Shown here in pieces: positions 149 to 17,003 of a DNA stretch of 64,000 bases. Under the pieces are notes generated by a model. The model saw only the letters and a program-made list of their open reading frames with translations, ran no database searches and had not been told where the DNA came from. This DNA is from Methanoculleus sediminis (GTDB lineage Archaea > Halobacteriota > Methanomicrobia > Methanomicrobiales > Methanoculleaceae): contig NZ_JXOJ01000002.1 of assembly GCF_001017125.1 (NCBI RefSeq), positions 559,017 to 623,016 of the forward strand. The letters are read 5' to 3'. Position numbers and translations under genes: made by a program. Every line of letters begins with the position of its first letter. Within the stretch, counting starts at the first letter, position 1.

Positions 149-222
149 GGGCTCGTGGTCTAGCTGGTTATGACGTCGCCTTCACACGGCGGAGGTCTCG
201 AGTTCGAATCTCGACGAGCCCA
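149..222 (+). tRNA. tRNA-Val (anticodon CAC), integration target
   Basis: Acceptor GGGCTCG (149-155) pairs with CGAGCCC (215-221), discriminator A222. Anticodon stem TCGCC/GGCGG encloses loop TTCACAC with anticodon CAC at 183-185; the T-arm stem is TCGAG/CTCGA. Bases 178-222 recur exactly at 14951-14995, so the 3' part of this gene is the attachment core of the element to its right. The tRNA stays intact after integration. Confidence 0.95.
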
Positions 223-569
223 TCAGAATCGGAACCCTCTGGCGGGGCGCCAGAGGGGTCTGATCCAAAAAGAGTGCCCAATTCTTCGAGTTTCTTAATA
301 CGCCTTTCCAGTTCATCTACTCGGCCAGTTAGCTCAAGTTGTCCAACTTGAGGAATGGCGCCTCCCTCTTCAACCAAGACGAATGCGCGATGACCATTAG
401 ACTCGATTGCAAATATCCGCATATGCTTGCCAATCAGGTCTGCATTCTCTTGTGGGAAGCGAATGAAGGGATATGTTATACCGGGTTTAGGAGTCTTCCC
501 CTGTACTTTGCATTGTCCAATCTCACGCATGTGGTTACCCCATTTAGGCAACGGGGCTTTTGACGACAT
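168..569 (-). CDS. Split tyrosine integrase, N-terminal part (interrupted by attL)
   Basis: Site-specific recombinase N-terminal piece. From ATG 569 it reads about 115 residues of element-specific sequence, including a hydrophobic strand-rich segment and a charged coiled-coil-like helix (VDELERRIKKLEEL), then enters the tRNA-Val core as GLVEIRTRDLRRVK and stops six bases inside the intact tRNA. The catalytic part is at the other end of the element (13768-14995) and reads the same core in the same frame, so excision would restore one continuous protein of about 524 aa. A second possible start is Met14 (MREIGQCK). In the integrated state this fragment has no catalytic residues and would be inactive, although it could still bind DNA. 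The coding sequence overlaps a 10-bp hairpin at 235-257. Confidence 0.8.
   Translation of the reverse strand: MSSKAPLPKWGNHMREIGQCKVQGKTPKPGITYPFIRFPQENADLIGKHMRIFAIESNGHRAFVLVEEGGAIPQVGQLELTGRVDELERRIKKLEELGTLFGSDPSGAPPEGSDSDGLVEIRTRDLRRVKATS
178..222 (+). repeat. attL core: 45-bp direct repeat in the tRNA-Val 3' part
   Basis: This 45-bp stretch from the anticodon stem to the discriminator base is identical to 14951-14995. The copies are flanked by unrelated bases on the right (TCAG here, CTCG there). Upstream, similarity continues with a gap into the tRNA 5' half and the tRNA-Gly 3' end. On the minus strand the core is translated in the same frame at both ends (GLVEIRTRDLRRVK), as expected if attP lies inside the integrase gene. 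Confidence 0.93.
235..257. repeat. GC-rich hairpin just inside the element
   Basis: CCCTCTGGCG (235-244) and CGCCAGAGGG (248-257) form a perfect 10-bp stem with a GGG loop; TCAGA (223-227) and TCTGA (259-263) can extend it. It lies 13 bases after tRNA-Val and inside the integrase N-terminal coding sequence. It could be a recombinase arm site or limit tRNA read-through. No T-run follows, so a classical terminator is unlikely. Confidence 0.6.
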
Positions 570-843
570 AAACCTTGTGAAATGGGTTCTATCGGATAAA
601 AATCCAAAATTTATGCACGTTTTAAATTATTAGTGATTATAGCCCCCAATAGCACCCAATGTAAAATTGCATCCACATTAAGTGAATTTTCACATCGGTG
701 TTTGCGTAAATCCTTACAAAATTAACGATTCCCGACACCATACCGATCATCCAACTTTCATCAAGCTATCGGGGGAGCGATTTCACAACCATGGGCGCGC
801 AAAATAATCATACTATATAAAATAATTCCAATAAACAATTTAA
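570..843. other. Divergent promoter region between integrase and replication operon
   Basis: AT-rich and non-coding as far as I can see. It separates the leftward integrase part (ATG 569) from the rightward operon. It contains AGCACCCAAT (651-660), the complement of part of a 17-bp element repeat found at 6937 and 13471, and ends with the TATA box at 811-822. Confidence 0.6.
811..822 (+). promoter_or_regulatory. TATA box of the replication operon (leaderless start at 844)
   Basis: The stretch TACTATATAAAA is a strong archaeal TATA box. Its centre lies about 27 bases before ATG 844, so the transcript should start at or next to that ATG. This argues for a leaderless first cistron followed by Shine-Dalgarno-dependent cistrons at 1192, 2496 and 2750. 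Confidence 0.65.
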
Positions 844-1035
844 ATGACCCAAACCCTACACCTAAATCTCATTAAGCGCGAAAAAAGCGGGAACCCCATG
901 GAGAAGATATATATACAACTACATACAAAAATATATACAATGATTATTAAGCCAGGAGAACGGAAGCGTGCGGCTGAAATCGCCCGAATCGATCCAAAGC
1001 CATCTCCGGCTCATGGTCAGCCGAACAGAATGTGA
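844..1035 (+). CDS. Small basic protein, possible leaderless first gene of the replication operon
   Basis: A 63-aa open frame, basic (many Lys/Arg) and unlike any family I recognise. The main support is position: the ATG is at the predicted transcription start set by the TATA box at 811-822, the usual geometry of an archaeal leaderless mRNA. An internal Met19 (MEKIYIQLH) is a second candidate start. About 156 bases separate it from the next gene, which has its own ribosome site. It may be a short regulatory or leader peptide, or only a 5' leader RNA. Confidence 0.4.
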   Translation: MTQTLHLNLIKREKSGNPMEKIYIQLHTKIYTMIIKPGERKRAAEIARIDPKPSPAHGQPNRM

Positions 1036-1191
1036 AAAGCAAGTTTTCACACAGGGTGCAGAATAATCAAATACCGATACTGCTGCCCGACCAGAACTTG
1101 AAATAACTCGATTGGTGTGGATGATTATGAATTCACCCACAAAGAATCGAGAAACTCTCCGCACGCCGTAAAAATAACAGGTGAATAGTAT

Positions 1192-2427
1192 ATGAGTATT
1201 AGTAATATCAAAATCTCTAAAAAAATATCTTCGGATATTGAAAAAGCAGCGCCGACTGAACCCGTTCAAGTCAATACACTTGGATTGACTGTTGAGAGTG
1301 AAAGTTGGGAAAGTGATTGGGATAGTGAGTGGGAATATGCATGCGGTCATCGCAATCAAACCTTCGCAGATATGCGAGAACAGGAGTGGCTCAACTTCAA
1401 TATCTTTGCCGCTGAGTTACAATTCAGATGTGAAGATAATGGATTTGATTTCGATTACTATCTTATTCCGCTTGAGAAAGAGGGTGAGAAGCCCGTAAAC
1501 AGAATAGATTGGAAAGATCGAACCTCAGGCAGTATTGACGAAAGAAGTGTTAAACAACGCTTAAGGTCTAACCGTGGTAATTACGGGATCGTAGCTTGCG
1601 GTACACTCGAACCTTCAGACGAATCAATTTCTAATAAAGAATTTGAAAGGAGAGTGACCTTCGGTTTCATTGTTTTGGATCGAGATGAAACTGGTGAGTA
1701 TAAGCTACCACAGGAAAAAGTCGCTGAATTGGTTCGTCGCTTCAAGACCTTCACCGTAAAAAGCGATTCTGGCGACCTATATCTCTATGTTGGTGTGACC
1801 GTACCTGTTTTGCGACATGTGTTCAAGAGGTGTGGATCGGAAAATCCCTCGCTAACTTATGAAGGGGCATGTGTTGGGAGACTCTGCTTCAGCAATCAGT
1901 ATGTTGTTGGGGCCGGCTCATATATCCCTGCAACGGACCAAATGAGGATCTATGAGTGCCAAGATAAGACATCTGGTTTTTACCACAGCGAGAGTTATGC
2001 CCGTATTCGAGTTGTAACCAAAGCGGATATCGATTCGATGCCGTTGACTCTCAAAACGGATGGTACACCCTCTAGTGACGAGTATGCAAAGGGCAAAGTG
2101 TCCGCCGTGGATCTTACACTGGCCAATGAGAGCGATCCAGACACCATTGTCAACGCATCTGGATTGACTGTTGAAGAGGTAAGAGCACAGGTTCCAGAGC
2201 TCGACAACCTACTTTCTGGGCCGTGGGCATCCGCAACCTCAAAGCTTCGTTACAAGACCCCCATTAGATTTGTAATGGACGAGAAGACTGCATACTTGCT
2301 CAAGAACAATGGCTTCAGTATCGAGCAGGCATGGGTTATCCTCCGTAAATATCGCAGATCCATGAGGATGTTTCGTGTCCATTACCTCAACCGGCTGCTC
2401 AGTCAGGTATACGGGAGTAGTGCATAA
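1192..2427 (+). CDS. Stand-alone PrimPol-like protein with all three catalytic motifs altered
   Basis: A 411-aa paralogue of the N-terminal primase-polymerase region of the neighbour at 2750. Shared scaffold: FDYYLIPLE, GFIVLD, NQYVVGAGSYIP, LDNLLSG and the helical VILRKYR segment. Compared with the neighbour, motif I has Val161 for the first Asp of DxD, motif II reads GDLY (194-197) in place of GGFH so the His becomes Tyr197, and the GEFR motif becomes GRLC with Arg230 for Glu. Metal and nucleotide binding should therefore be lost while the fold is kept. The N-terminal 60 residues are extra and acidic. ATG 1192 has AGGTGA at 1179-1184. Possible roles (inferred): template-binding subunit, partner or regulator of the active enzyme. 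A shifted DRD at 163-165 leaves slight doubt about full inactivity. Confidence 0.8.
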   Translation: MSISNIKISKKISSDIEKAAPTEPVQVNTLGLTVESESWESDWDSEWEYACGHRNQTFADMREQEWLNFNIFAAELQFRCEDNGFDFDYYLIPLEKEGEKPVNRIDWKDRTSGSIDERSVKQRLRSNRGNYGIVACGTLEPSDESISNKEFERRVTFGFIVLDRDETGEYKLPQEKVAELVRRFKTFTVKSDSGDLYLYVGVTVPVLRHVFKRCGSENPSLTYEGACVGRLCFSNQYVVGAGSYIPATDQMRIYECQDKTSGFYHSESYARIRVVTKADIDSMPLTLKTDGTPSSDEYAKGKVSAVDLTLANESDPDTIVNASGLTVEEVRAQVPELDNLLSGPWASATSKLRYKTPIRFVMDEKTAYLLKNNGFSIEQAWVILRKYRRSMRMFRVHYLNRLLSQVYGSSA

Positions 2428-2495
2428 TTCAGTCAAAATCGCGGAGGATTTTCAGATTCATCCGCGAAAAACAAGTAAAAAGTGGTGATAAAAAA

Positions 2496-2744
2496 ATGGT
2501 AATGATTCGTTATAGCGAAGGCTATGCAAAAGCGGCCTTCTACATTAATCAGTGCGCAGACTGTCGAATAAACGAATACGTCCCTGTGTTAGCGGGTAAA
2601 AAGGGGCGTTCGTCAATTGCGAATAGGAACCCGTTCACATCAGCTGATGGCCAAACACGCACGTCTTCTCACCATACCGATCAGTGTGAGCATAGACATT
2701 CACGGGTAGCCGATCTTAGAGGATATTTTTCAGAGGATAGGTGA
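2496..2744 (+). CDS. Small unknown protein between the two PrimPol genes
   Basis: An 82-aa frame with a good ribosome site, GGTGAT at 2484-2489, before ATG 2496. It is polar and basic. A Cys-x2-Cys pair near residues 19-22 and a later His/Cys cluster (SHHTDQCEHRH) could bind zinc, but this is only a composition hint. It ends four to six bases before the next start; the last bases form the ribosome site of the primase gene, so the two are probably translationally coupled. I recognise no family. It belongs to the replication operon by position. Confidence 0.6.
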   Translation: MVMIRYSEGYAKAAFYINQCADCRINEYVPVLAGKKGRSSIANRNPFTSADGQTRTSSHHTDQCEHRHSRVADLRGYFSEDR

Positions 2745-2749
2745 TTAAA

Positions 2750-5700
2750 ATGGAAGATTCAATAAAAGATTCTAAGGATAAGGTTTCACTCCCGATAGGA
2801 GTTGACAATCTCCCCTCGACAGATGAGCAGAGCCCCTCAAAGGACAAACAAAGAAAGGAGTTAGAGAAGTTTTTCCAAAGACTCTCAGAACTGGAGACCA
2901 CGTGCAAAAATAGGAATCTAGAGTTTGATTATTATTTTATTGCTCTTGAAAGGAGAGGAAAAAAACCTGTACCTTTATGTAATTGGAAATATAGGCCAGC
3001 AAGCTCACTCACTCGGACGGAGGTTCAAGATCGCATACTATACGATTACGGAAATTTCGCAATAGTAGCTACCAATGATCCAGAAAAATTGCATGATAAC
3101 CGAGTGACGATCTGTTTTATTGATCTGGATCTGAACCAAGACGGTAGCTTCAAGCTGCCAAGGGAAAAGGTCTTTGAGATCCTCCATCGTTTTGACAGTT
3201 TCACAGTCAGAACGCGCTCTGGTGGCTTTCATATTTATTTCGCCATCACCGCACCTGAAGCGTGGGAAGTGTGTAAGCAGTATGGAGAGAACGCAGTTCT
3301 AAAACATGATGGTGTGAATTACGGAGAATTCCGTCTTACCAATCAATACGTTGTCGGCGTTGGCTCGTATATTCCAGTGAACGACCAATCACAGAGTCAT
3401 GGATATCGAGAAGAGGCAACGGGGTACTATGAGGTAGAGATTGACAAGCCGATTCGCTTCATATCCGCAGACGATTTGGGAACATTGCTTCACAAAAAGA
3501 CGTGTACCACACCACCCATCAGCACAGGTGGTGGGGTGTGGGCAGTGAATCATGACCAGATCAACGAAATTAAACCTGACAACATTATCAACGCGTATGG
3601 AAAGACCCTTGAGGAAGTTAGAGCACAAGACATAAAACTCGACAACCTACTCTCTGGTGCAGGAGCATCTTTAACGTCCAAGACTCCCGAAAAGGAACCA
3701 GATAAAAGTGAAATGGATTATGCAGCCGTGTCTATTTTAAAAGGCCACGGATTTACTCCAGAGCAGACGTGGGTAATTCTCCGTAAATATAGACCATACG
3801 CCAAGATGCTTGAACGTGATGACTACCTCGAAAGAACAATTGGCAAGGTGTACAAAAATGGGAGTTCGTTCACATCATCCCCCACTATCACATCGACTGC
3901 GGGAGACCCCTCTGACACGGAAACTGAAGAGATTGTTCTGTCACAGTTCCCCGACAAGCTCTCCACGACTCGCCCATGCATCCATTTGTTAGGTCTCCCG
4001 CGAACAGGAAAATCGTATTTCGCTCAAAAAATCTTGGGGACGGAATACAGTTCAGGAGTATATGTGGCACCCAGTCATGAGATACTCAAACAGCAGTATG
4101 CACGGTTTATACAACAATTCCCCAAGAAAACGTGCGTGAGGCTAGTGGGAAAAGGCCAGGAAAGCGTATGCACGTATGTAAATGACCAAGGCAAGAAGTG
4201 CGATTGTGCGCACTGCCTGAAAATGCCGAAATTCAATACAAATGAGACGAAAAAGGATGGTTCTAGCATCTCTCGCGACGACATAATCACATGGTGGGAG
4301 ATGGAAAAGGTCGCAAAAAAAGTTGTTCTGCGATACAAGCACATTGACCCCACCACATTTACTCAAGAAGAATTTCACAAGTTGCTTGAAAGAGATGGGA
4401 AGAAGTATTGCCCATACTACTTGCTGCATTTTTGTGAAAGAGAGGTGGATTATGTCTTCACCACGCAGTATTATACAACAGTTCCCGACGAAAATGAAAG
4501 TATCACATCAATTAAAAAACGAGAAGTCTGTGTCATTGATGAAGATCCTTCGTTTAGGTTCTATTTGCCACGTGATTTTGCTTTGGTCGAGTATAGTTGT
4601 TATCCAGCGAGTACGAAGATCAAAAATAACCTATTTGAGTACGCAGAACCTCTCAACCACCTAAAATCGTACGTAATGCACGTTTATGAGAAAGATAAGA
4701 ATGGAAAGATGATCCAAAAAGCAAAACAACGCCTGAAAGAACATGAGAAAATAATTCTTGATCTCATCAATTATGTTGAAACTGTCCAGAAGTGCATTAG
4801 CGAGTTCAAGGACAAATATGCGGAGATGGAGTTTAATGAGTTGGTCGATGCACTTGAAGAAATTCAGATTTTACCCAATGATGAGAGGGAATCTTCACTT
4901 TACCAAGACGAAGCGACAAAACAGATGATACTGAAGGAGATCGAGCAGTATGAAAGAAAGCAGGGATTTGGAGGAGAGCAGGAATCTGAATCAGGTTTCT
5001 TACTCCGTCCACTATTTGAAATACTTTTGTACCCGTTGATGCCAAGTCCATACTGCACCATAGGTAGAAATCCTCAAACCCTATATCTCGTTGGAGACAA
5101 GGAAAAAATCATTCGAGAACCCCGGTGTGCAGACAAATACATTTTGATTGGTTTTAGCGAAGCGGGGCAGTTTGCAAAGCAATTATTTCCAAACCCAACG
5201 GATAGAATTTGCTATCGCATTGATAGTTTTCCATACAAGCAGAACTTCACGCTTGTGGTAGTATGCGGCAAAGACGCAAAAGAACAGCAGAGGCTGACCA
5301 TGTCATTCATACGAAAGTTGATAGAGAAAAACCGCTCAAGCGCTTGGAAAGTGCCTTCGATGATATTAACGTCTAGTCAGAAACAGCAAGAGGCTCTCGC
5401 GAAGAGGTTGCCAGATGGCACCACTTATGCCTGCCGTAAAGATGAAATAAACACATATCTCCAGAAATGGTGCGAAGGAAATGCGGAAATCTTCTACCAG
5501 AACTCGACTATTAGTCGAGGCATTGATATTCCATGGATGGATGTACTAATCGTACATAGCTGTAATTTTGCACAACCCTACCCCAAGGCAGTGATAGATA
5601 ACTGTGACCGTGCCCTTAAACACATCCTGACAGATATCAAACAGGAGAAAGAAAGGCTCGACTCGCTCGACCCAAAGGAGCCAGGATATAGCGATCACGT

Positions 5701-6571
5701 CAGGGAGATCCAGAATCACATCGATGAACTTAAAGATCTGCATTTCGATATGGCAGAGCCTATGGAAGATAAAAAGTACCATGCGAAAGTTATTCAGCAT
5801 TCAAGTCTTGTTGATGAAACCACCAATTCGGTTCTCCGTCCAACTCCAGTTAATGGGAAGCGGACTGAACAGGCGAAGTTCATCATTATACAAGGGAAAG
5901 AGGAGATGTATCTGAAGTCCGAACTAACACACGATATGCGGGAGATCTGTATCACATCTGAAAAAGAGGCTAGTGCTGTCATTGATCTTATTTACGACTC
6001 GGTGACGAAGGTTAACAGTGAGGCGATCATGCTAAAAGGGACAGGGCATGCGCTTACAGAGATCACCGATTACACAGACGCGGATATTGAAAGAGCAAGT
6101 GAGATCGATGGGATTCAATTCGGGAAATCCTATCATGAGGTCGCTCCCCTGATCGAGGAATTAAAGGCAGAACTTAAGGAATTGAATGAAGAAGTTGATT
6201 CACCAGACGGTCAAGACCAAAAATCCGATATCGTTGGAATTGTTGAAAAGCTGGTCAAGCATCCTGCGTTCGGAAAATGGACAAAGGAAAAACAACGCAC
6301 AGGAAGCATCAGCGTGAGTGCACTTATTCGGTGGGTGCGTTCACGTAGAAGGGAACCTTACTCATTAGCCTCGTGTCGAGAGGCGGTGAATTTTTTGGTG
6401 CAACAGAAATGGGTCTCTGTGAAGCGCTCCAGCCTCGTGCGGGAACACTCGACACTGGAGCGCGATAACGCACGACGCAACGACACTCTCTACATGACTA
6501 AAGCGAACATCAATGCGATCCACGAGGGTTCATTGGGGAAGATTACAATCAACCCGAAACCCTCTAATTAA
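2750..6571 (+). CDS. PrimPol-helicase, element replication protein
   Basis: A replication initiator-type protein of 1273 aa. N-terminal archaeo-eukaryotic primase/polymerase region, about residues 45-240: FIDLD with Asp125 and Asp127, SGGFH with His161, GEFR with Glu193, NQYVVGVGSYIP. A helical segment follows near 345-380. Helicase region: Walker A GLPRTGKS (415-422), Walker B VIDED (597-599), motif SRGIDIP (922-928). Cysteines between Walker A and B (VCTYVNDQGKKCDCAHC, then YCPYY) recall the iron-sulfur domain of XPD/DinG-type helicases. The last 100 residues look like a winged helix. ATG 2750 is preferred because AGGTGAT (2740-2746) is a strong ribosome site; GTG 2741 is the alternative. 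It would unwind and prime the element's DNA. Confidence 0.88.
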   Translation: MEDSIKDSKDKVSLPIGVDNLPSTDEQSPSKDKQRKELEKFFQRLSELETTCKNRNLEFDYYFIALERRGKKPVPLCNWKYRPASSLTRTEVQDRILYDYGNFAIVATNDPEKLHDNRVTICFIDLDLNQDGSFKLPREKVFEILHRFDSFTVRTRSGGFHIYFAITAPEAWEVCKQYGENAVLKHDGVNYGEFRLTNQYVVGVGSYIPVNDQSQSHGYREEATGYYEVEIDKPIRFISADDLGTLLHKKTCTTPPISTGGGVWAVNHDQINEIKPDNIINAYGKTLEEVRAQDIKLDNLLSGAGASLTSKTPEKEPDKSEMDYAAVSILKGHGFTPEQTWVILRKYRPYAKMLERDDYLERTIGKVYKNGSSFTSSPTITSTAGDPSDTETEEIVLSQFPDKLSTTRPCIHLLGLPRTGKSYFAQKILGTEYSSGVYVAPSHEILKQQYARFIQQFPKKTCVRLVGKGQESVCTYVNDQGKKCDCAHCLKMPKFNTNETKKDGSSISRDDIITWWEMEKVAKKVVLRYKHIDPTTFTQEEFHKLLERDGKKYCPYYLLHFCEREVDYVFTTQYYTTVPDENESITSIKKREVCVIDEDPSFRFYLPRDFALVEYSCYPASTKIKNNLFEYAEPLNHLKSYVMHVYEKDKNGKMIQKAKQRLKEHEKIILDLINYVETVQKCISEFKDKYAEMEFNELVDALEEIQILPNDERESSLYQDEATKQMILKEIEQYERKQGFGGEQESESGFLLRPLFEILLYPLMPSPYCTIGRNPQTLYLVGDKEKIIREPRCADKYILIGFSEAGQFAKQLFPNPTDRICYRIDSFPYKQNFTLVVVCGKDAKEQQRLTMSFIRKLIEKNRSSAWKVPSMILTSSQKQQEALAKRLPDGTTYACRKDEINTYLQKWCEGNAEIFYQNSTISRGIDIPWMDVLIVHSCNFAQPYPKAVIDNCDRALKHILTDIKQEKERLDSLDPKEPGYSDHVREIQNHIDELKDLHFDMAEPMEDKKYHAKVIQHSSLVDETTNSVLRPTPVNGKRTEQAKFIIIQGKEEMYLKSELTHDMREICITSEKEASAVIDLIYDSVTKVNSEAIMLKGTGHALTEITDYTDADIERASEIDGIQFGKSYHEVAPLIEELKAELKELNEEVDSPDGQDQKSDIVGIVEKLVKHPAFGKWTKEKQRTGSISVSALIRWVRSRRREPYSLASCREAVNFLVQQKWVSVKRSSLVREHSTLERDNARRNDTLYMTKANINAIHEGSLGKITINPKPSN

Positions 6572-7045: not shown

Positions 7046-7163
7046 TAGCCGTATACCCTGATTTTACACAAATTTCACAAAAATTGTGCACTTTCAGGGT
7101 AAATCACTGGCCAATCGCATTTTATGGATTAAAGGAATGGACTGTATATCTAGACCATTAAGA

Positions 7164-9014
7164 TCAAACACCAAATAAAAATTTTTTAAACTTATCTTCA
7201 GAGCATGCTGTGCCCTTATTCTCCTTCAACATCGCGAGATGCGCTTCATGTTCAATTTTTACTAAATTGAACACGGATTCAAGAGAGTGGAAAGTATACC
7301 CATAATTTTCACGAATTTCTTTCACTAGGTCAATTACAGAGTGATAGTATGAGTGTGCATTCTCCAAGAGTGGCGAGACATATGAGATCTGCTCACCTTT
7401 ATGAGTGATGAGATTTCTAGCCCGATATATCCTTTGCAATTGCCATCTCACCCTTTGATTATGGAGGACGATAGTTTCATGGATCTTACTTGCCGAAGAC
7501 ATTTTCTCCATTAGAGAGTAAATGCGGTTTATGAGCAGGGGATTGCGCCCGATTTTAGCATAAAGCTCATCTCGCAAAGGTTCATTCTTTTCCTTTAGAG
7601 CCACTAGTAAAGCACATTTCTCAAATTTCGAATAGTTAGAGGGCATCTTTGAAAATATCTCATTCAGATCGTTTTCGGACACGTTTAGATATAATGAGCG
7701 AAGAAGATCGTTAACCAACTTTTGAATATATTTACGTCCGAGAAGGGGTTCAAACGCGTCGGCAAACTGTAATATCCGTTGTCTCTGATCCGTTGGAGGA
7801 GGAAGCAAGGTCTCCATAGCGGTCCAGATGTTCATTAACTGATTTTCAGCGGTCTTTGACTGAACCGAACATGCATGTAGGTTTAAGGAGTTATAAATGA
7901 GATAACTCGAAGTACCGTCTGTATTTATGAAAAGAGAGGCCATTTCATCCATAGTATTCTGGAGCTCTTTTAATCCAGTATCCCTAATTTTCATCATTGG
8001 TGATACAGTAGGGGGTGCTACAGGTATCGCACGCCCCCCTTCAGAATATGCTAAACCACGGGACTCCCATAACAATTGTTCTTTATGCGTCTTGTACGTT
8101 ACTAGGTTGCTGATTAAAAAGAAAAACCGTTCTGCAATTAACCTTGCCTGAAATGGATCAAGAGCCTTGATATTCTTAAACTTGATAAATATCTGATTTT
8201 TTCTTCTAGTTCGGATGAATTTAGACTCATATTGAGTCATTTGAGGAGAGATAGGGACTTCATCAAGAATTTCACATTCAGTGCCCAATTTCGTTTGATC
8301 TAAATTCTTGAATTGCTCGTCTACCCTGAATAAGACCTCCCATTCTTTTCGCTTCCCAGAAAACAGGCTTAAAAACCCATTAAGCTGGCTCACAGATTCA
8401 ATCGGCTCATTAGAGAAAAAGAAGCGTCTTGTTTCATGAAAGAGATACTGTTGAGTATACCCTAGAGACTGTAATTCAGAGATAAAAACGCGTGCTAGGA
8501 ACTCAATCTCTTTCTTCCCATTCCCCTCTGCTGTATGCGTTAAAAGATTCTTCTTAACCTCATCCAAATAATATACGTTAAAAATTTGATTTAGCGTCTC
8601 TATCTCAGACAGCACCTTTTTGATTGGAATATTAACTTCTGAATCTTCATCTTTGCTTGATATAGACTTGCTGGACGTTTGAGGTGAAGCCCCTTTTACA
8701 ACCTTGTAACTGTTTAATCTCTCAATTACCTTTGGATATCGTAAACCTAAAATCTCCTTCGCCACAAAATCGTTTTTCAGATCCCATGTTAACTCCTCCA
8801 ATATCGGATTCGCTGCTTTTGGTTGAAGAAAACCAGTCTCAATCTCAGACAAGACATCAAGCAACTCAGCACATAGAGCATGAGTATTAAACACTGGAGC
8901 CTTATAGGAATCAATAGTATAATCGAACAGCATTTCTTCCAAAAGCTGAGCGAAAAAGAGCAAATTATCCAAGTCTGGGTTAGAACTCCAGTTTTCAATT
9001 TGAGGTTTCCGCAT
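7164..9014 (-). CDS. Large protein with C-terminal HEPN-type motif, possible RNase effector
   Basis: 616 aa, mostly helical and without transmembrane segments. Near the C-terminus RNLITH (Arg533-His538) fits the R-x4-6-H motif of HEPN ribonucleases. The surrounding helices (VRWQLQRIYRARNLITHKG, then a long helix after 550) match the usual HEPN layout. The first 450 residues are not recognised; a Ser/Lys/Asp-rich linker lies near 130-145. The ATG is preceded by TATATAAAA about 20 bases upstream, so a leaderless mRNA is possible but the spacing is tight. HEPN proteins in mobile DNA often act in abortive infection or toxin systems. That role here rests on the motif and on the neighbouring DUF3800 and 288-aa genes. 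A regulatory or RNA-binding role is possible. Confidence 0.65.
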   Translation of the reverse strand: MRKPQIENWSSNPDLDNLLFFAQLLEEMLFDYTIDSYKAPVFNTHALCAELLDVLSEIETGFLQPKAANPILEELTWDLKNDFVAKEILGLRYPKVIERLNSYKVVKGASPQTSSKSISSKDEDSEVNIPIKKVLSEIETLNQIFNVYYLDEVKKNLLTHTAEGNGKKEIEFLARVFISELQSLGYTQQYLFHETRRFFFSNEPIESVSQLNGFLSLFSGKRKEWEVLFRVDEQFKNLDQTKLGTECEILDEVPISPQMTQYESKFIRTRRKNQIFIKFKNIKALDPFQARLIAERFFFLISNLVTYKTHKEQLLWESRGLAYSEGGRAIPVAPPTVSPMMKIRDTGLKELQNTMDEMASLFINTDGTSSYLIYNSLNLHACSVQSKTAENQLMNIWTAMETLLPPPTDQRQRILQFADAFEPLLGRKYIQKLVNDLLRSLYLNVSENDLNEIFSKMPSNYSKFEKCALLVALKEKNEPLRDELYAKIGRNPLLINRIYSLMEKMSSASKIHETIVLHNQRVRWQLQRIYRARNLITHKGEQISYVSPLLENAHSYYHSVIDLVKEIRENYGYTFHSLESVFNLVKIEHEAHLAMLKENKGTACSEDKFKKFLFGV

Positions 9015-9241
9015 GTGAGAGCACGAATTTTATATAGCTCTGTTAGAGTATATAAAGCATCGTTTTCGGGTGTGAAGCCCTAAAGCGCTGTATTAATTTA
9101 ATCAACTGCCTTAAACGAGCGAGACTGACCTCACATAACAGACTTACACAAGTTCTCATAACTTACTCTTCAACTTGTTGTGATAGATCAAATTAACGAT
9201 CTAAGATACCGCAACAAGGAAGAAACTATGTAGAGGCTAGT
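9015..9241. other. Short AT-rich gap upstream of the HEPN gene
   Basis: Non-coding 227 bases holding a minus-strand TATA-like sequence at about 9026-9038. I see no RNA gene or repeat here. Confidence 0.5.
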
Positions 9242-10297
9242 TTAAAACCAGTTCGAAAGATCGCTCTGATCAGGGTCACTCACTACGATGGGCCTCTCAT
9301 AATAGAAATAATCTCTTTCAAGAGGTTGATCCTCGGTAAGATGATCAAAGTCAAACCTTTGTTGTAGTCTATCGATATCCATCTTTTCACAGGGGAAAAA
9401 AGTGACTTGATACGTTCGATAATAGTAACTTTGATAGTAACTCCCGATCATTGCACCGTGAGACTCATGTTTCCGGCGGTCCAGTAACGTCTCCAAGGTA
9501 GGTTTGAATAGGTAGCCGATCTTTCTCTTTTGATACTTTCTTTTCGGATCGCTATGGAGACACGAATAAACCGCTCCAAGAAGGATATCCACAAGTTGGA
9601 TAAACTGTGATTCATCCATGTTGCTTTTCCTATGGTCAGAATTGATGAACTCTATCTCATAATCAAGAATTGTGATGTGCTCAGTTCGAATGTTTATTTT
9701 GTAAATCGAATGCCATGGGCAATACTTATGATTCTTTTGGCTCCCGTCATCATGATAGATCTTATGGATTGCAATAGTCCCATAATTCTTGAAAAAGTAT
9801 TTTAGTCCACCCAACAGCGCCGTTCTGTAGAAACGGTTATAGATCGTCAATACTCGATCAGAATCCGTGCCAAATTGATCGAGGTTCAATTTTGTGAGAT
9901 TGATACCCAGAATGTTGAAAAAAACCTTTTTACTCCTTGCACATGCACTTGACGATATGTATTCAATCCATCGGCATGCAATCTTAAATCTAGTATCTAA
10001 CTTGTGGATCTCTTTGTAATGGACTTCAGTGTTATTTTTATCATGAAACCCACACATGTGTGAGCATTCATGCTCTGTATCCGACCAATCTTCATACTTC
10101 AAGCATCGATAATTCTTTAGAATCTGTAGGCAGGACTCCTTTTCACTAAGTGGGATGAACAGCACACCAATGTAAACCCACTTACTGTGATCTCGTGGAT
10201 CGATGACTTCAAAGATTTCGTCGGAATAAACTTCGAGATCAAGTCGTTCGTATCTCTTATCAGCACTATCCTGCGGATCAAATACCTCTAATAGCAA
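9242..10297 (-). CDS. DUF3800-like protein (RNase H-like fold)
   Basis: 351 aa. The first strand and acidic pair VYSDE (Asp26, Glu27), the strand VYIGVLFIPL, the IYHDDGSQKN turn (Asp183/184) and the C-terminal helix FIQLVDILLGAVY (Asp237) follow the DUF3800 pattern, a presumed metal-dependent nuclease-like fold common in mobile and defence loci. No ATG exists near the N-terminus. TTG 10297 is chosen because AGTGATC, close to the archaeal ribosome-site consensus, lies just before it and an in-frame stop follows a few codons further upstream. Same strand as the HEPN gene but 227 bases upstream of it. Its substrate is unknown. Confidence 0.72.
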   Translation of the reverse strand: MLLEVFDPQDSADKRYERLDLEVYSDEIFEVIDPRDHSKWVYIGVLFIPLSEKESCLQILKNYRCLKYEDWSDTEHECSHMCGFHDKNNTEVHYKEIHKLDTRFKIACRWIEYISSSACARSKKVFFNILGINLTKLNLDQFGTDSDRVLTIYNRFYRTALLGGLKYFFKNYGTIAIHKIYHDDGSQKNHKYCPWHSIYKINIRTEHITILDYEIEFINSDHRKSNMDESQFIQLVDILLGAVYSCLHSDPKRKYQKRKIGYLFKPTLETLLDRRKHESHGAMIGSYYQSYYYRTYQVTFFPCEKMDIDRLQQRFDFDHLTEDQPLERDYFYYERPIVVSDPDQSDLSNWF

Positions 10298-10492
10298 AGG
10301 ATCACTTGTTAATGATTAATAGATGGGGTATTTAATGTTTTTATTTCTGATGTCTACACGGCAATTACATCTAATAGAAACAAACGATTTAACAAACGGG
10401 AAACGCGTAATCGTAGAGGAGGAAATTCAACATGTTTATCTATTAAGTTACACACCATATGTGCTTACATTAATCGGAGCTGTGCGTTCTTT

Positions 10493-11359
10493 ATGGAAGG
10501 ACGAAGATATTATTCTGTCAGAAAAGGCATAAATCAAGGCGAACTGGATTTTGACTTGAATTTGTTAAAAAGAGCCTTTAATTCAATATATTCTGATTTC
10601 AACAATAAATATTACTTCCAAAAGGCATTCGGGTACAAGTGTGTTGATGATGGCACCGTGCCTGGAACAACAGGCAGTGACATAGAAATCTTCTTTCTAA
10701 GAAAGTTGCTGAAACCAAATCTTTGGCCAATTGGAAAGATGATAGACAATTACTCTGAGGATGATTTGTTCGATGTCATTGAATTGTTGTATGACCTAAT
10801 TGCAAAGCCTCTCGTGGGGTATGAGCACAAGTGGAACAACTGCGGATGGCATTATCAGACCTTTGATGACGAAACTGGACAATCAGAATTCAGGAAAGAA
10901 ATTAATGAGATCCTACGAAGTTACCGTGAAGGATATGAACTGTCTGCAAGTGGTGAAATCCTTTTAATTGGTGACAAAGGACTAGAGGACTTACATCAGG
11001 AAGAGGTGCCTGAGTTCGATCCAGACAACATTGACGAAAGGTTAAAGCAAGCAGTATTAAAATTCCGCCGATACAAATCATCAGATGAAGAAAAGAGGGA
11101 AGCCGTTCGCACTCTTGCTGACATCTTGGAATATTTAAGGGACAAGCTGGGTAAACATGGGACATATCTATTGAGCAAAGATGAAGATGCTCTCTTCAAT
11201 ATCGCCAATAATTTTGGGATTCGTCATCATAATCTCCGCCAACAGACCAACTACGATGCCACCACATGGCTGCCGTGGATGTTTTACATTTACCTTGCAT
11301 CCATCCACCTGTCAATCCGATTGATTCAGCGAGCCAACAGTGAAGCGGACGAAGACTAA
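10493..11359 (+). CDS. 288-aa protein of a widespread unnamed family, possibly HEPN-like
   Basis: Soluble protein, 288 aa. N-terminal part reads RYYSVRKGIN and contains the FGYKCVDDGTVPG and NLWPIGKM segments. The C-terminal helical part carries NNFGIRHHN (Arg244, His245, His246) followed by an aromatic helix pair (WLPWMFYIYLASIHLSIRL). From memory this arrangement occurs in a common bacterial and archaeal family often found in accessory regions; I cannot name it with certainty. The RHHN turn before the last helices resembles the Arg/His site of HEPN-like folds, which is inference. Transcribed away from the DUF3800 gene, with a 195-base divergent gap that should contain both promoters. Confidence 0.6.
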   Translation: MEGRRYYSVRKGINQGELDFDLNLLKRAFNSIYSDFNNKYYFQKAFGYKCVDDGTVPGTTGSDIEIFFLRKLLKPNLWPIGKMIDNYSEDDLFDVIELLYDLIAKPLVGYEHKWNNCGWHYQTFDDETGQSEFRKEINEILRSYREGYELSASGEILLIGDKGLEDLHQEEVPEFDPDNIDERLKQAVLKFRRYKSSDEEKREAVRTLADILEYLRDKLGKHGTYLLSKDEDALFNIANNFGIRHHNLRQQTNYDATTWLPWMFYIYLASIHLSIRLIQRANSEADED

Positions 11360-13663: not shown

Positions 13664-13855
13664 ATGGTACGTTCTAAGTCTGATTCAAAGGGATCTCTAT
13701 TTAGAATATTTGGAGTTGGAATTATCCTCTGTTCGTTCGGCATAGTTTTGCTTGCTGATGATTGGTTTTATGACGATTGGCTTGGTTTCGCACTAATCCT
13801 TATAGGTGCTGCGATAATCGTAGTTTCATTATTGCTCTTCTTTGCCAAACACTGA
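13664..13855 (+). CDS. Small two-helix membrane protein
   Basis: 63 aa: a basic N-terminus (MVRSKSDSKG), two hydrophobic segments (about 13-31 and 39-59) separated by the acidic turn ADDWFYDDW. Typical of small membrane proteins of unknown role. It overlaps the 3' end of the integrase gene by 88 bases on the opposite strand. No clear ribosome site; possibly leaderless. Confidence 0.5.
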   Translation: MVRSKSDSKGSLFRIFGVGIILCSFGIVLLADDWFYDDWLGFALILIGAAIIVVSLLLFFAKH

Positions 13856-14995
13856 TTACTGTCATTTTTCAAATATGGAGGGATCTCCATTCTCACACTG
13901 ATAATCGATTCCAAGACAGGTGGAACAAGGCGTGTGTCTGCCCAGTACTTCATGTACGCCTGATAGACGAATTCGGGCAGTGGGTGCTTATAATGGCCCC
14001 AATCAACACCACTGACACCATGTGTGAGGATATATGCTCGGTTACTCTGATCCCACTGTATGATATCACCATATTGTTCAGCGAATTTCCGCGTATCTGA
14101 ACTGACAAAGTGTTTTCCTGTCCTAGACAAGGTGACTTTGTTCCGCTTTATCCACTGCTGATAACTCATGTAATGGAACAGTCGCTCCCCATCATCCCTG
14201 TGAAGTATCAATTGTTCAAGGATAGGGCGTAGATCAGGATGAATTGGCACATAGTGCTCCATTCTGATTTTATCCTGATCAGGTGCAACCTGTAAAACAG
14301 GTACCTCACTGTGAAGAGCCATCCGTGCTTGGCCGACAGTCAGTTTATCGATGGTTGCCTCAACACGCTGCCCTGTATATGCACCAAATAGGACAATCCC
14401 CACATGGTTCATGAATTTAGTATAGTCCAATTCTCCCTTTTGATACGCATTTGTAATATGCACGACAACGTTTTCAATGTCTTCTCGTGTCACAATGCGG
14501 GAGGTAATGGTTTTCCGTTCCTTGAGATACTTCGGCGGTTCGAGGAAGAGGGTGAATTGCTGATAGCGGGAATCGAGTTTAAGACGTGAAAGGTGCTTCA
14601 GGTACGATCGAACGAAGTTTAAGACTTTATTCCAAGAATCTTTGCTTTTGTATTTCTCAAGGATGTTTTGATAGAGGCTGTTCAAGACCTTCTGGCTGAT
14701 AACCCCCTTGCTGAAGTCCCAGAACATCTGAGATGCGCGTTGTATCCAATCCTGTGATTTCGGGGACAGTTTATAAAGGCGGGTACTTGTGTATTGGGTC
14801 AGTTCCACCTCCAAGTATCGCAATTCAAGTGTTGCTAAGCTTGGTTGCGATTGTTCACCATGTGGGTATCCTCTGTAACTCCAGTCATCACCAAGTAAGC
14901 ATGTAGCGTCCGGTCGATGCACTTGGGGCTCGTGGTCTAGCTGGTCAGGAGCCTTCACACGGCGGAGGTCTCGAGTTCGAATCTCGACGAGCCCA
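13768..14995 (-). CDS. Split tyrosine integrase, catalytic part (joined to attR)
   Basis: Catalytic portion of the element's site-specific recombinase. After the att core (GLVEIRTRDLRRVK), residues APDQLDHEPQVHRPD are encoded by a tRNA-derived stretch. A helical core-binding region follows, then the catalytic domain: first Arg in GAYTGQRVEAT, KIRMEHYVPIHPDLRP, SDTRKFAEQYGD as the HxxR equivalent, LTHGVSGVDWGHYKH, and the probable nucleophile Tyr in FVYQAYMKYW. It resembles archaeal virus and plasmid integrases. No start of its own is expected here; the frame only continues into flanking DNA to ATG 15048. With the part at 569 it forms a gene of about 524 codons in the circle. Confidence 0.85.
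14910..14950 (+). repeat. Element-borne copy of tRNA-Gly 3' end and tRNA-Val 5' half
   Basis: 12 bp (14910-14921) match the end of tRNA-Gly and 22 bp (14924-14945) match the start of tRNA-Val (147-168), with a CT in place of the single-base spacer step. Then CAGGA stands where the true tRNA has nine bases (169-177). Together with the att core this makes a near-complete but broken tRNA-Val, all inside the integrase reading frame. Confidence 0.85.
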
Positions 14996-15184
14996 CTCGT
15001 TTTTCGGGGATACGGCCACAATCGCAGACTGAATCCCCTTTTCCGCACCTTTTATCAACTCATCAACGAATCGGGACGCATTCGTAACGTTGTTCGCCAG
15101 AAAATTACGGGACTGATCTGATAGAGTAAAGGTGCATTTTCTCCGTTTACGCTCATATTTCTTTTCTTTCGACGGGCGAGGCAT
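14945..15184 (-). pseudogene. N-terminal remnant of a second integrase, cut by the att core
   Basis: From ATG 15184, with GGAG as ribosome site about 9 bases before it, this frame encodes about 60 basic residues (MPRPSKEKKYERKRRK, then TFTLSDQSRNFLANNV) resembling a small ribbon-helix-helix-like DNA-binding module. It then enters the tRNA-Val core in a different frame as WARRDSNSRPPPCEG and stops. In archaeal integrases with internal attP, that phrase is a familiar translation of a tRNA 3' part. So this is probably the N-terminal half of another split integrase, left by an earlier element, whose catalytic half is lost or elsewhere. Tandem dyads lie just upstream. Confidence 0.6.
14951..14995 (+). 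repeat. attR core: 45-bp direct repeat
   Basis: Identical to 178-222. The upstream D-arm is 4 bases short and the anticodon stem is disturbed, so this copy should not give a functional tRNA. Chromosome, or an older element, resumes at 14996. Confidence 0.93.
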
Positions 15185-15202
15185 TTTCTCTTCTCCGTTC
15201 TA

Positions 15203-15234
15203 CTGTCCATACAGTTATGTATCTGTTCATACAG
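15203..15234 (-). promoter_or_regulatory. Tandem operator-like dyads before the integrase remnant
   Basis: CTGTCCATACAG (15203-15214) and CTGTTCATACAG (15223-15234) are spaced exactly 20 bp, two helical turns. Each half-site pair CTGT/ACAG is an inverted repeat. They lie 19-50 bases upstream of ATG 15184, whose product begins like a ribbon-helix-helix protein. Autoregulation is the natural inference. Confidence 0.6.
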
Positions 15235-15503
15235 GTTTTGATTACCTTATGCTCTGTTTAAGGGGTCTTAAAGAGGCGGTAACCAAAAAAAGGTGCAGGG
15301 TCCGCGCGGGACGTTGAAAGAAATGAGGGAAAGCAAACAGGAAGTACGTGCTCTCAGTAAATCATCTGCAACACCGCAGTCATACGGTGGCGATGATGAT
15401 CCGGCTGCCTTCACCAATTAAAGCAATGAAAGCATTTTTCAGGCAGAAACAACTACAACATCGAATATAAAAATCTATTATACTCTATCCTGAATACACA
15501 AAT
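15235..15503. other. Gap upstream of the M48 protease gene
   Basis: No gene seen. A TATA-like box TCTATTATACTC around 15474-15485 lies about 25 bases before ATG 15504, fitting a leaderless start. Confidence 0.5.
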
Positions 15504-16373
15504 ATGAATGAGATCTTTTTAACAGAGAGTATCAAGTACATTGTACTTATTCTCATTGTATTGGGCGCTTCAATCTATTACATTACGCGCAAACAGTTTT
15601 GGCAAAGCTTTGTTGGGCTTATTGTGATGTCTTATTTTCAGGGTCTCCTGATCTCATTATGGCTATTTTCAGATGCGTTCCTTATATTTTTCACAGTGAG
15701 CGTTCTGATCGCGATATACTATTATCTTTTCTTCCACCATTTGTTAGGAATAATCGCTTCTTTGAAATCTAAGCGTTCTCCAGAAACAAAAGAATACGAG
15801 GACTCTAATGTCTTGTCACGGTTGGACGGCATATGGGGTCTCACAATTAAAGACTATGCAATTAAAGTATATGATGGACAGAACTCATTTGGTGCCTTTA
15901 CAAACGTGTACGGCAGTCCAAAGGAGATCCTTATTGGAGAAAAATTGAAGGAAAAACTAAACACTGAAGAGACAGTTTTTGTGATTTCCCATGAAGCCGC
16001 TCACCATGCAAGGAAAAACTGGTATCGGGTTTTCTATTACCTCTTTCCGCTTATTTATATGATTCCATGCAGTATCATTGCATTTTTGTTAGTTTATTTG
16101 GGCATTGCAAACATTTTCTCATTCTGCGCAACTGCAGGACTTCTTTTTATCCTTGGTGTGATTACTGTGCATTATACCTTTTGGAACATGGAGTATATGG
16201 CAGATCTTGGAGCAGTAAGGAAAACAAGTGATAAGATAAATGCGATATCAGCACTTGGAAAAATAGCTGAAACAGTTGAAGAAAAGAGAATCAATAAATT
16301 AGTTAGTTTGCTGACTTCGGATCATCCCTCAACAGAAGATAGAATTTTGAAAATAAGTGCAGAGAAGATGTAA
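15504..16373 (+). CDS. M48-family membrane metalloprotease (HtpX-like)
   Basis: Zinc endopeptidase of 289 aa. N-terminal transmembrane segments near 9-27, 33-52 and 56-80; zinc site HEAAH (His163, Glu164, His167); two more membrane segments at about 178-200 and 203-224; third ligand Glu230 in EYMADLGAV; C-terminal DHPSTEDRI, usual for the family. The active site should face the cytosol, where such enzymes degrade damaged membrane proteins. AT-rich compared with chromosomal genes and next to an integrase remnant, so probably cargo of an older element. The start is supported by TATA spacing. Confidence 0.85.
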   Translation: MNEIFLTESIKYIVLILIVLGASIYYITRKQFWQSFVGLIVMSYFQGLLISLWLFSDAFLIFFTVSVLIAIYYYLFFHHLLGIIASLKSKRSPETKEYEDSNVLSRLDGIWGLTIKDYAIKVYDGQNSFGAFTNVYGSPKEILIGEKLKEKLNTEETVFVISHEAAHHARKNWYRVFYYLFPLIYMIPCSIIAFLLVYLGIANIFSFCATAGLLFILGVITVHYTFWNMEYMADLGAVRKTSDKINAISALGKIAETVEEKRINKLVSLLTSDHPSTEDRILKISAEKM

Positions 16374-16735
16374 TCTTAAGATTATATTTTTATGAATGGC
16401 AAATTCCTAATTTAGAAGTTGCCTCTGAATGTGATCCCGGAGTAACGACTTCTTTTCTCCTCATGAAACCCCTAGTGCACCGTGTCATCTTATTATAGAA
16501 ATTTCTTGCATGTACCGGGACGGCAACCATGGTCTCACGCGAAGAGCGCGAAGCCGCGAAGTGAAGTTACCAGCAGGTATCGCTCAGTCTTCGCGCTCTT
16601 CGCGGCTTCGCGTGAGTTATTAGTGTAGATGACGATACGGTCTCACGCGAAGCCGCGAAGGTGATGTCGGATTTTAGGTTTAGATGACAACAAGTACTAG
16701 GATCGGATCGCAGTCAGCCTCCCCTGCGGCGACCA
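16374..16735. repeat. Intergenic region with GCGAAG palindromic repeats
   Basis: Three related units: 16534-16561 and 16641-16659 in one orientation, 16589-16616 inverted. Each starts CTCACGCGAAG and is built from GCGAAGAGC and GCGAAGCC blocks; facing copies could form a long hairpin. This is probably a small dispersed chromosomal repeat. No gene is visible. The shift from AT-rich to GC-rich sequence occurs here, marking the right edge of the accretion zone. Confidence 0.6.
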
Positions 16736-17003
16736 CTACCTCTTCCACGCACTCCGCCGGGTGCCATAGAGCGCGGAGGTCTCTTCGACGATCTGCCGGC
16801 GGGGGATAACGTCGCGGAGCATGGCGGCAACGGTGCGCTTGAGATCATGAACGATACACAAGAGATCCCAATCCCCGACCCGAACCACCGTCCCACCCTC
16901 CCCGAACCCCACACACCCGATTGACTCCCCCGGCGAATCAAGAACTTTCCATGAACATTTCAAAACCCCTTTCACGCTGCCGCGAGAATCCTGTACACGT
17001 ACC
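16736..17003 (-). pseudogene. Possible transposase C-terminal remnant
   Basis: An open minus-strand frame ends with DWDLLCIVHDLKRTVAAML, reminiscent of the last segment of IS transposases (the usual pattern is W-x-L-x-C-x-x-H-N-L-K-R). No catalytic domain or inverted repeats are seen. It overlaps the likely promoter of the gene at 17004, so it would be only a relic. Weak evidence. Confidence 0.25.

Follow-up and report, generated by a model that had tools for sequence, protein, structure and literature searches.

A putative pseudo-PrimPol encoded beside an active-looking PrimPol-helicase in an integrated archaeal element

Inactive paralogues of replication enzymes recur, as with PolB2, one half of Pol epsilon and a domain of Twinkle, and we know of no inactive paralogue for the PrimPols. 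The initial annotation of the locus described here knew of no described pair of a PrimPol and an inactivated sister, and in the open-access literature we likewise found neither such a pair nor any description of an inactive AEP paralogue. In the pRN1 replicon, orf56 (copy control) precedes orf904, and the minimal replicon also needs a stem-loop region downstream of orf904 (PMC4234260). The ORF904 variant H145A has no catalytic activity (PMC11009956), W314A and Y352A lower primase activity (PMC8718748), and the ATP1 site in the helix bundle is formed by R309, S310, R311 and H315. Archaeal PolB2 is thought to be involved in repair or regulation (PMC4104785).

The window (the whole 64-kb stretch of DNA that was analysed) sits within the 2.49-Mb genome of a methanogenic archaeon, and a plasmid-like element of about 14.8 kb integrated at tRNA-Val carries both PrimPol genes (Table 1). 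The tRNA-Gly/tRNA-Val tandem at 75-222 is native because it is 95-100 % identical in sister species, with the similarity stopping at the 3' end of tRNA-Val. A second tRNA-Val copy at 14926-14996, identical over a stretch of about 45 nt that spans the tRNA 3' half, is the right att copy. With the tRNA-Val att repeat at both ends, and an att-encoded peptide common to intN and intC, the element has SSV-type anatomy, its integrase gene having been split by integration. Its GC content is 38-46 % compared to about 60 % in the host DNA further on, and its GC3 is 0.40-0.49 compared to 0.82-0.87 in the host; the two PrimPol genes have the same composition as the element. Low GC runs for about 2 kb past the right attachment copy (window 15000-17000), and this stretch is perhaps the remnant of another insertion at the same tRNA. 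The element also has defence-like cargo (window 7164-11359), consisting of an ApeA-like protein (PADLOC E=1.6e-6), a DUF3800/PDC-M04A-like protein (E=4.5e-4) and an AbiJ_NTD4/PDC-S32-like protein (E=2.2e-11).

Table 1. Features of the element, with positions in the window
Feature	Position	Strand	Basis or remark
tRNA-Val(CAC), native host gene, left attachment site	149..222	+	ARAGORN; sister-species comparison
intN, N-terminal part of split SSV-type integrase, crosses tRNA	168..569	-	att-encoded peptide GLVEIRTRDLRRVKA in common with right-end ORF
Operon upstream region, TATA-like sequences and repeated ATAATCA(T), both orientations	800..1130	.	motif counts
Putative pseudo-PrimPol (short protein), 411 aa, PrimPol core and helix-bundle domain, without helicase	1192..2427	+	alignment, profile, tree, codon model
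Short protein, degenerate motif I, V161-L-D163	1672..1680	+	ORF904 D111 lost; E113 position kept as D
Short protein, degenerate motif II, SGDLY	1768..1782	+	Gly to Asp, His to Tyr; ORF904 H145
Short protein, degenerate motif III, GRLC	1876..1887	+	Glu to Arg, Arg to Cys; ORF904 D171 at Glu position
Short protein, helix-bundle domain	2254..2424	+	nucleotide-site Ser to Phe (F360); Trp position to Glu (E364)
82-aa ORF between short and long genes	2496..2744	+	ribosome site; GTGA overlap with long gene; CxxC and CxHxH
PrimPol-helicase (long protein), 1276 aa (alternative ATG at 2750)	2741..6571	+	open reading frame; profile match
Long protein, motif I DLD, intact	3122..3130	+	alignment
Long protein, motif II SGGFH, intact	3218..3232	+	alignment
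Long protein, motif III GEFR, intact	3323..3334	+	alignment
Long protein, Walker A GLPRTGKS, helicase part	3992..4015	+	kept in G102 relative
Long protein, four conserved Cys (C477, C489, C492, C557) between Walker A and VIDED	4169..4411	+	kept in G102 relative
48-nt imperfect hairpin, 3' of replicase	7054..7101	.	z = -3.4
intC, C-terminal part of split integrase, spans right att copy	13768..15048	-	integrase family matches; peptide GLVEIRTRDLRRVKA

The two PrimPol genes are adjacent on the same strand, each with a ribosome site, and we refer to their products as the short and the long protein. The initial annotation reported both reading frames and took the short protein for a paralogue of the N-terminal PrimPol part of the long one, which holds: both frames are present at the positions it gave and, in a MAFFT alignment, the short protein has about 41 % identity to the N-terminal 400 aa of the long one, with structural invariants of the PrimPol core and helix bundle kept and no indel around any motif. 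The blocks NQYVVGxGSYIP, LDNLLSG and VILRKYR, singled out earlier as a scaffold, are common to both proteins, and the replacements noted at the same time (FIDLD to FIVLD, SGGFH to SGDLY and GEFR to GRLC) are all present. The short gene is also intact as described, with GGTGA 7-8 nt before the ATG and no stops.

Neither protein matched above cut-off in direct Pfam, NCBIfam, PHROGs and PADLOC scans, and a single-sequence PDB search with the long domain gave no match. Relatives in the phylum were detected with a three-sequence profile, and several exceed the Pfam cut-off for Prim-Pol PF09250. A nine-sequence profile, built from the long domain plus eight relatives and without the short protein, matches pRN1 ORF904 (3m1m) from the core through the helix bundle (E=1.5e-19). 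Correspondences to ORF904 were counted from H145, V148 and S150 as numbered in PMC11009956, and, since the HMMER alignment has a gap at this point, E196 of the long protein was paired by hand with D171, both being 7 positions from the YVV-strand Tyr. Residues D128, D130, H164, E196, S323, Y327 and Y362 of the long protein correspond in this way to D111, E113, H145, D171, S310, W314 and Y352 of ORF904. The matching residues in the short protein are V, D, Y, R, F, E and Y, in this order; we take D111, E113 and D171 to be the metal-binding acids of ORF904.

The long protein has the catalytic PrimPol set (D128, D130, H164 and E196, the acid that precedes the YVVxxGS strand) and, in K322-S323..D326, the RS-x-x-D motif of the helix bundle, which the profile match reaches. 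Judged by its sequence, it is an active-looking PrimPol. In the helicase part (window 3992-5536), Walker A, VIDED, ISRGxDIPW and the four conserved Cys are placed as in XPD/DinG Fe-S helicases. DEAD_2 gave E=0.79 with the long protein, below the family cut-off, and the motifs and Cys are conserved in two proteins. The arrangement may be of the XPD/DinG-like Fe-S SF2 kind; for a PrimPol, fusion with an SF2 helicase of the Fe-S type would be unusual.

The initial annotation went one residue too far in stating that the short protein has lost all catalytic motifs. The first Asp, the His and the third acid are indeed gone (V161, Y197 and R230), and the second Asp of the DxD is kept (D130 of the long protein, D163 of the short), with a new Asp, D165, two residues on. 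Relative to ORF904, D111 is replaced by V, H145 by Y, D171 by R, Ser310 by Phe and Trp314 by Glu, and an invariant Gly has become Asp and an Arg has become Cys. We looked at 23 columns that nine other PrimPols conserve with no more than one exception. Of these, the short protein retains 15, among which are (long numbering) D130, N184, G195, Q202, Y203, G208, S209, G228 and Y230, and departs at K74, L124, D128, G162, H164, E196, R198 and S323. Five of these 8 departures are at active-site residues (D128, G162, H164, E196 and R198) and one, S323, is at a nucleotide-site residue of the helix bundle. The substitutions hit both the polymerisation centre and the initiation site, where Ser310 to Phe and Trp314 to Glu would remove parts of the initiating-nucleotide site. 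We infer that the short protein would be catalytically dead; D163 and D165 may confer residual metal binding. Because homology extends over core and helix bundle while the catalytic residues are missing, it is, on present sequence comparison, best termed a PrimPol paralogue and not a primase. A register-shifted DxD (D163-x-D165) was considered and judged unlikely, as there are anchors on both sides and no indel between.

An AlphaFold model of the helix bundle (short residues 310-411) has a pLDDT of 82, its top fold match being the RepB' primase 3h20 at an insignificant E=0.84, and the full short protein modelled from a two-row alignment has a mean pLDDT of 40. Among long stretches, the one in which the two proteins are most alike is the linker before the helix bundle (17/25 identical at 316-340), a candidate for a surface common to both.

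In a maximum-likelihood tree the short and long proteins are sisters (99/98), with the relative from genome G102 outside, and the short branch is 3.6 times longer (1.34 compared to 0.37). We read this as a duplication within the lineage, after which the short copy changed fast. Change between the two genes is higher at codon position 3 (0.58) than at positions 1 and 2 (0.43 and 0.37). The initial annotation had set dN/dS beforehand as a check, and we used a codon model with three taxa in which equal time is assumed for the short and long branches (292 or 374 codons). Under this assumption dN/dS is 0.33-0.41 for the short gene and 0.14-0.17 for the long gene, and a value of 1 is rejected for the short gene (2 delta lnL of 19.5 with 292 codons and 29.1 with 374 codons). 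Without it, the rejection is weak (2 delta lnL of 3.4 and 6.5), since the G102 branch is saturated and synonymous sites nearly so. We also simulated neutral evolution from the long sequence to the observed divergence (about 46 % at the nucleotide level), assigning half of the change to the short branch. The expectation is about 13 stops in the short gene, which has 0, and 0/4000 runs were stop-free.

Such a gene might be a duplicate in decay that has no function and is turning into a pseudogene. The missing catalytic residues and the long branch would fit, and replication genes of a host-integrated element may be under weak selection. However, all 411 codons have stayed open and the invariant structural residues are retained; with no stops where about 13 are expected and dN/dS below 1, we consider decay unlikely. 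The frame of the gene is unbroken and, given the equal-time assumption, its dN/dS is not near 1 and it is under purifying selection. Together with the lost residues, this agrees with the initial reading of an apparently non-catalytic copy beside an active-looking PrimPol-helicase.

The initial annotation called this copy a conserved subunit and proposed a search for the same pair in other archaeal elements, and here the result went against it: the pair is a single occurrence in the collections searched. No second short copy was found in 40 genomes of the family, in 232 class-level genomes queried with the long protein, or among 393 genomes of the phylum, 69 of which matched, many to the helix bundle only. 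Plasmid, phage, IMG/VR and species-genome contig collections gave no second copy or pair either, with pattern-based scans that are weak for so divergent a protein, and the viral-contig and genome-contig scans gave no usable relative and one weak Actinomadura match. Among the loci returned, the first Asp is kept in every other member aligned over motif I, the motif II His is Gln in two relatives and the third acid is Ser in one, and none other lacks all. PrimPols with the His to Gln change (L029:9098-11095 and L064) keep the other catalytic residues. The one relative that matches the long protein over its full length (G102, locus L007; 33 % identity) has intact FLDID, SGGYH and GELR motifs and no inactive partner beside it. 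The first 80 or so codons of this relative are in another frame, joined at an A-run (L007:12165-12185), which may reflect decay, sequencing error or a programmed frameshift. Another archaeal PrimPol relative (L031:6170-8199) is divided between two frames that overlap (138 + 554 aa) and precedes an SF1-like helicase.

In the region upstream of the operon, ATAATCA has 5 copies in 570-1191 compared to 0.34 expected, and all 3 ATAATCAT in the 64-kb window fall within 800..1130, the pattern having been chosen after the repeats were seen. The ATAATCA(T) repeats are possibly an operator or iterons. A 63-aa ORF (window 844-1035) begins about 25 nt past the TATA-like CTATATAAAAT, like a leaderless archaeal transcript, and could be the first gene of the operon. 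We found no trace of a lost helicase in the stretch that separates the short gene from the long one. The 82-aa ORF located there has no family match in family-profile scans; its Cys and His suggest that it is possibly a small zinc protein, and it is a possible third member of the operon. The hairpin about 480 bp downstream of the replicase gene is a candidate origin structure.

Taken together, these observations indicate that the short protein is probably a pseudo-primase regulating or assisting initiation by its active partner. We hypothesize that the PrimPol and helix-bundle part of the neighbouring gene was duplicated inside the lineage of the element, and that the copy lost its metal-binding, catalytic and initiating-nucleotide residues, either lost the helicase or lacked it from the start, and has been maintained by selection as a folded protein. 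The short protein would be expressed from the upstream region that also serves the replicase, presumably by co-transcription, and would keep a PrimPol core and linker-helix-bundle surfaces in common with its partner. It would bind that partner and/or the template or origin of the element with no primer made, and as a non-priming competitor or co-binder would set how often the PrimPol-helicase initiates. To a duplicate pseudo-primase kept under selection and setting initiation frequency in this way we give about even credence. The more specific proposal, in which the dead PrimPol paralogue sits in a dedicated heteromeric complex with the active PrimPol-helicase, controls initiation of the mobile element and is the first AEP/PrimPol pseudoenzyme, is put forward tentatively. 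Initiation control is favoured because the short gene occupies the slot before the replicase as orf56 does, and because of the 3' hairpin and the upstream ATAATCA(T) repeats. By analogy, we infer that the regulation would be negative in sign.

Alternatively, and this is the main rival to initiation control, the short protein may be a positively acting non-catalytic subunit of a heteromeric primase, architectural or for loading like PriL/PriX or the inactive half of other polymerases, that holds the template or helps to assemble or load the PrimPol-helicase, in which case priming would be weaker without it. The lost residues, the homology and the selection count for this reading as they do for initiation control, and there are precedents for inactive polymerase or primase domains retained in replication systems, in PolB2 (PMC4104785), in the N-terminal domain of Twinkle (PMC9723800) and in PriL, which modulates PriS (PMC3973330). 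We nevertheless regard it as less likely than initiation control, since the nearest full-length relative of the long protein does without such a partner, which is therefore not generally needed, and since the short protein has also lost helix-bundle nucleotide-site residues expected of a subunit presenting template or NTP. It is also conceivable that the short protein is active still, with D163-x-D165 serving as a shifted DxD in a rearranged site, or with another chemistry; the kept D163 and the presence of D165 would allow this, but with Arg for the third acid, Tyr for the His and Asp for a nearby invariant Gly it is very unlikely. The defence-like neighbours in the element raise the idea of an interference factor aimed at other elements, which would titrate the origins or PrimPol-type replicases of related viruses or plasmids (superinfection exclusion). 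That idea seems hardly probable, as the short gene is grouped with the replicase and not with the defence-like genes, and the closest kin of the short protein is its own partner.

Returning to initiation control, the active and inactive sisters adjoin in a small element, and the biochemistry of the pRN1 relative is known down to single residues. It can therefore be tested directly whether a dead primase holds back or aids its active sister. The standalone PrimPols of about 370 aa in family f8, genus g87 (L049, L050, L052, L053) resemble the short gene in having no helicase, and a separate ORF of 650-670 aa follows directly in the two loci read (L068, L069); in contrast to the short protein, all keep the D/H/E motifs, and no active PrimPol sister is directly beside them. 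The N-terminal pseudo-primase domain of Twinkle (PMC9723800) is similarly primase-derived, without primase activity and retained in a replicative helicase system, but it has a TOPRIM fold, is fused to the helicase and has no active partner. PriS-PriL and PriX also combine a catalytic AEP with a non-catalytic helical partner, yet PriL and PriX are not inactivated AEP cores, whereas the short protein is directly paralogous to its partner and contains the dead core. Inactivated archaeal PolB2 (Rogozin 2008, Makarova 2014; PMC4104785) is likewise a paralogue with replaced catalytic residues in an operon with replication or repair genes; it belongs to DNA polymerase family B and is widespread in archaea, whereas the short protein is an AEP/PrimPol with one instance, in a mobile element and beside its active sister. 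By profile, pRN1 ORF904 (PF09250 core and helix bundle; PDB 3m1m, 1ro0, 6gt7) has the same core and helix bundle, and the long protein has all of its catalytic positions, although ORF904 is fused to an SF3 helicase (PMC3973330) and the helicase part of the long protein is SF2-like. Both replicons have an extra gene upstream of the replicase, and it is in the orf56 slot that the short gene lies; in pRN1 that gene encodes a small repressor, whereas here it would encode an inactive PrimPol.
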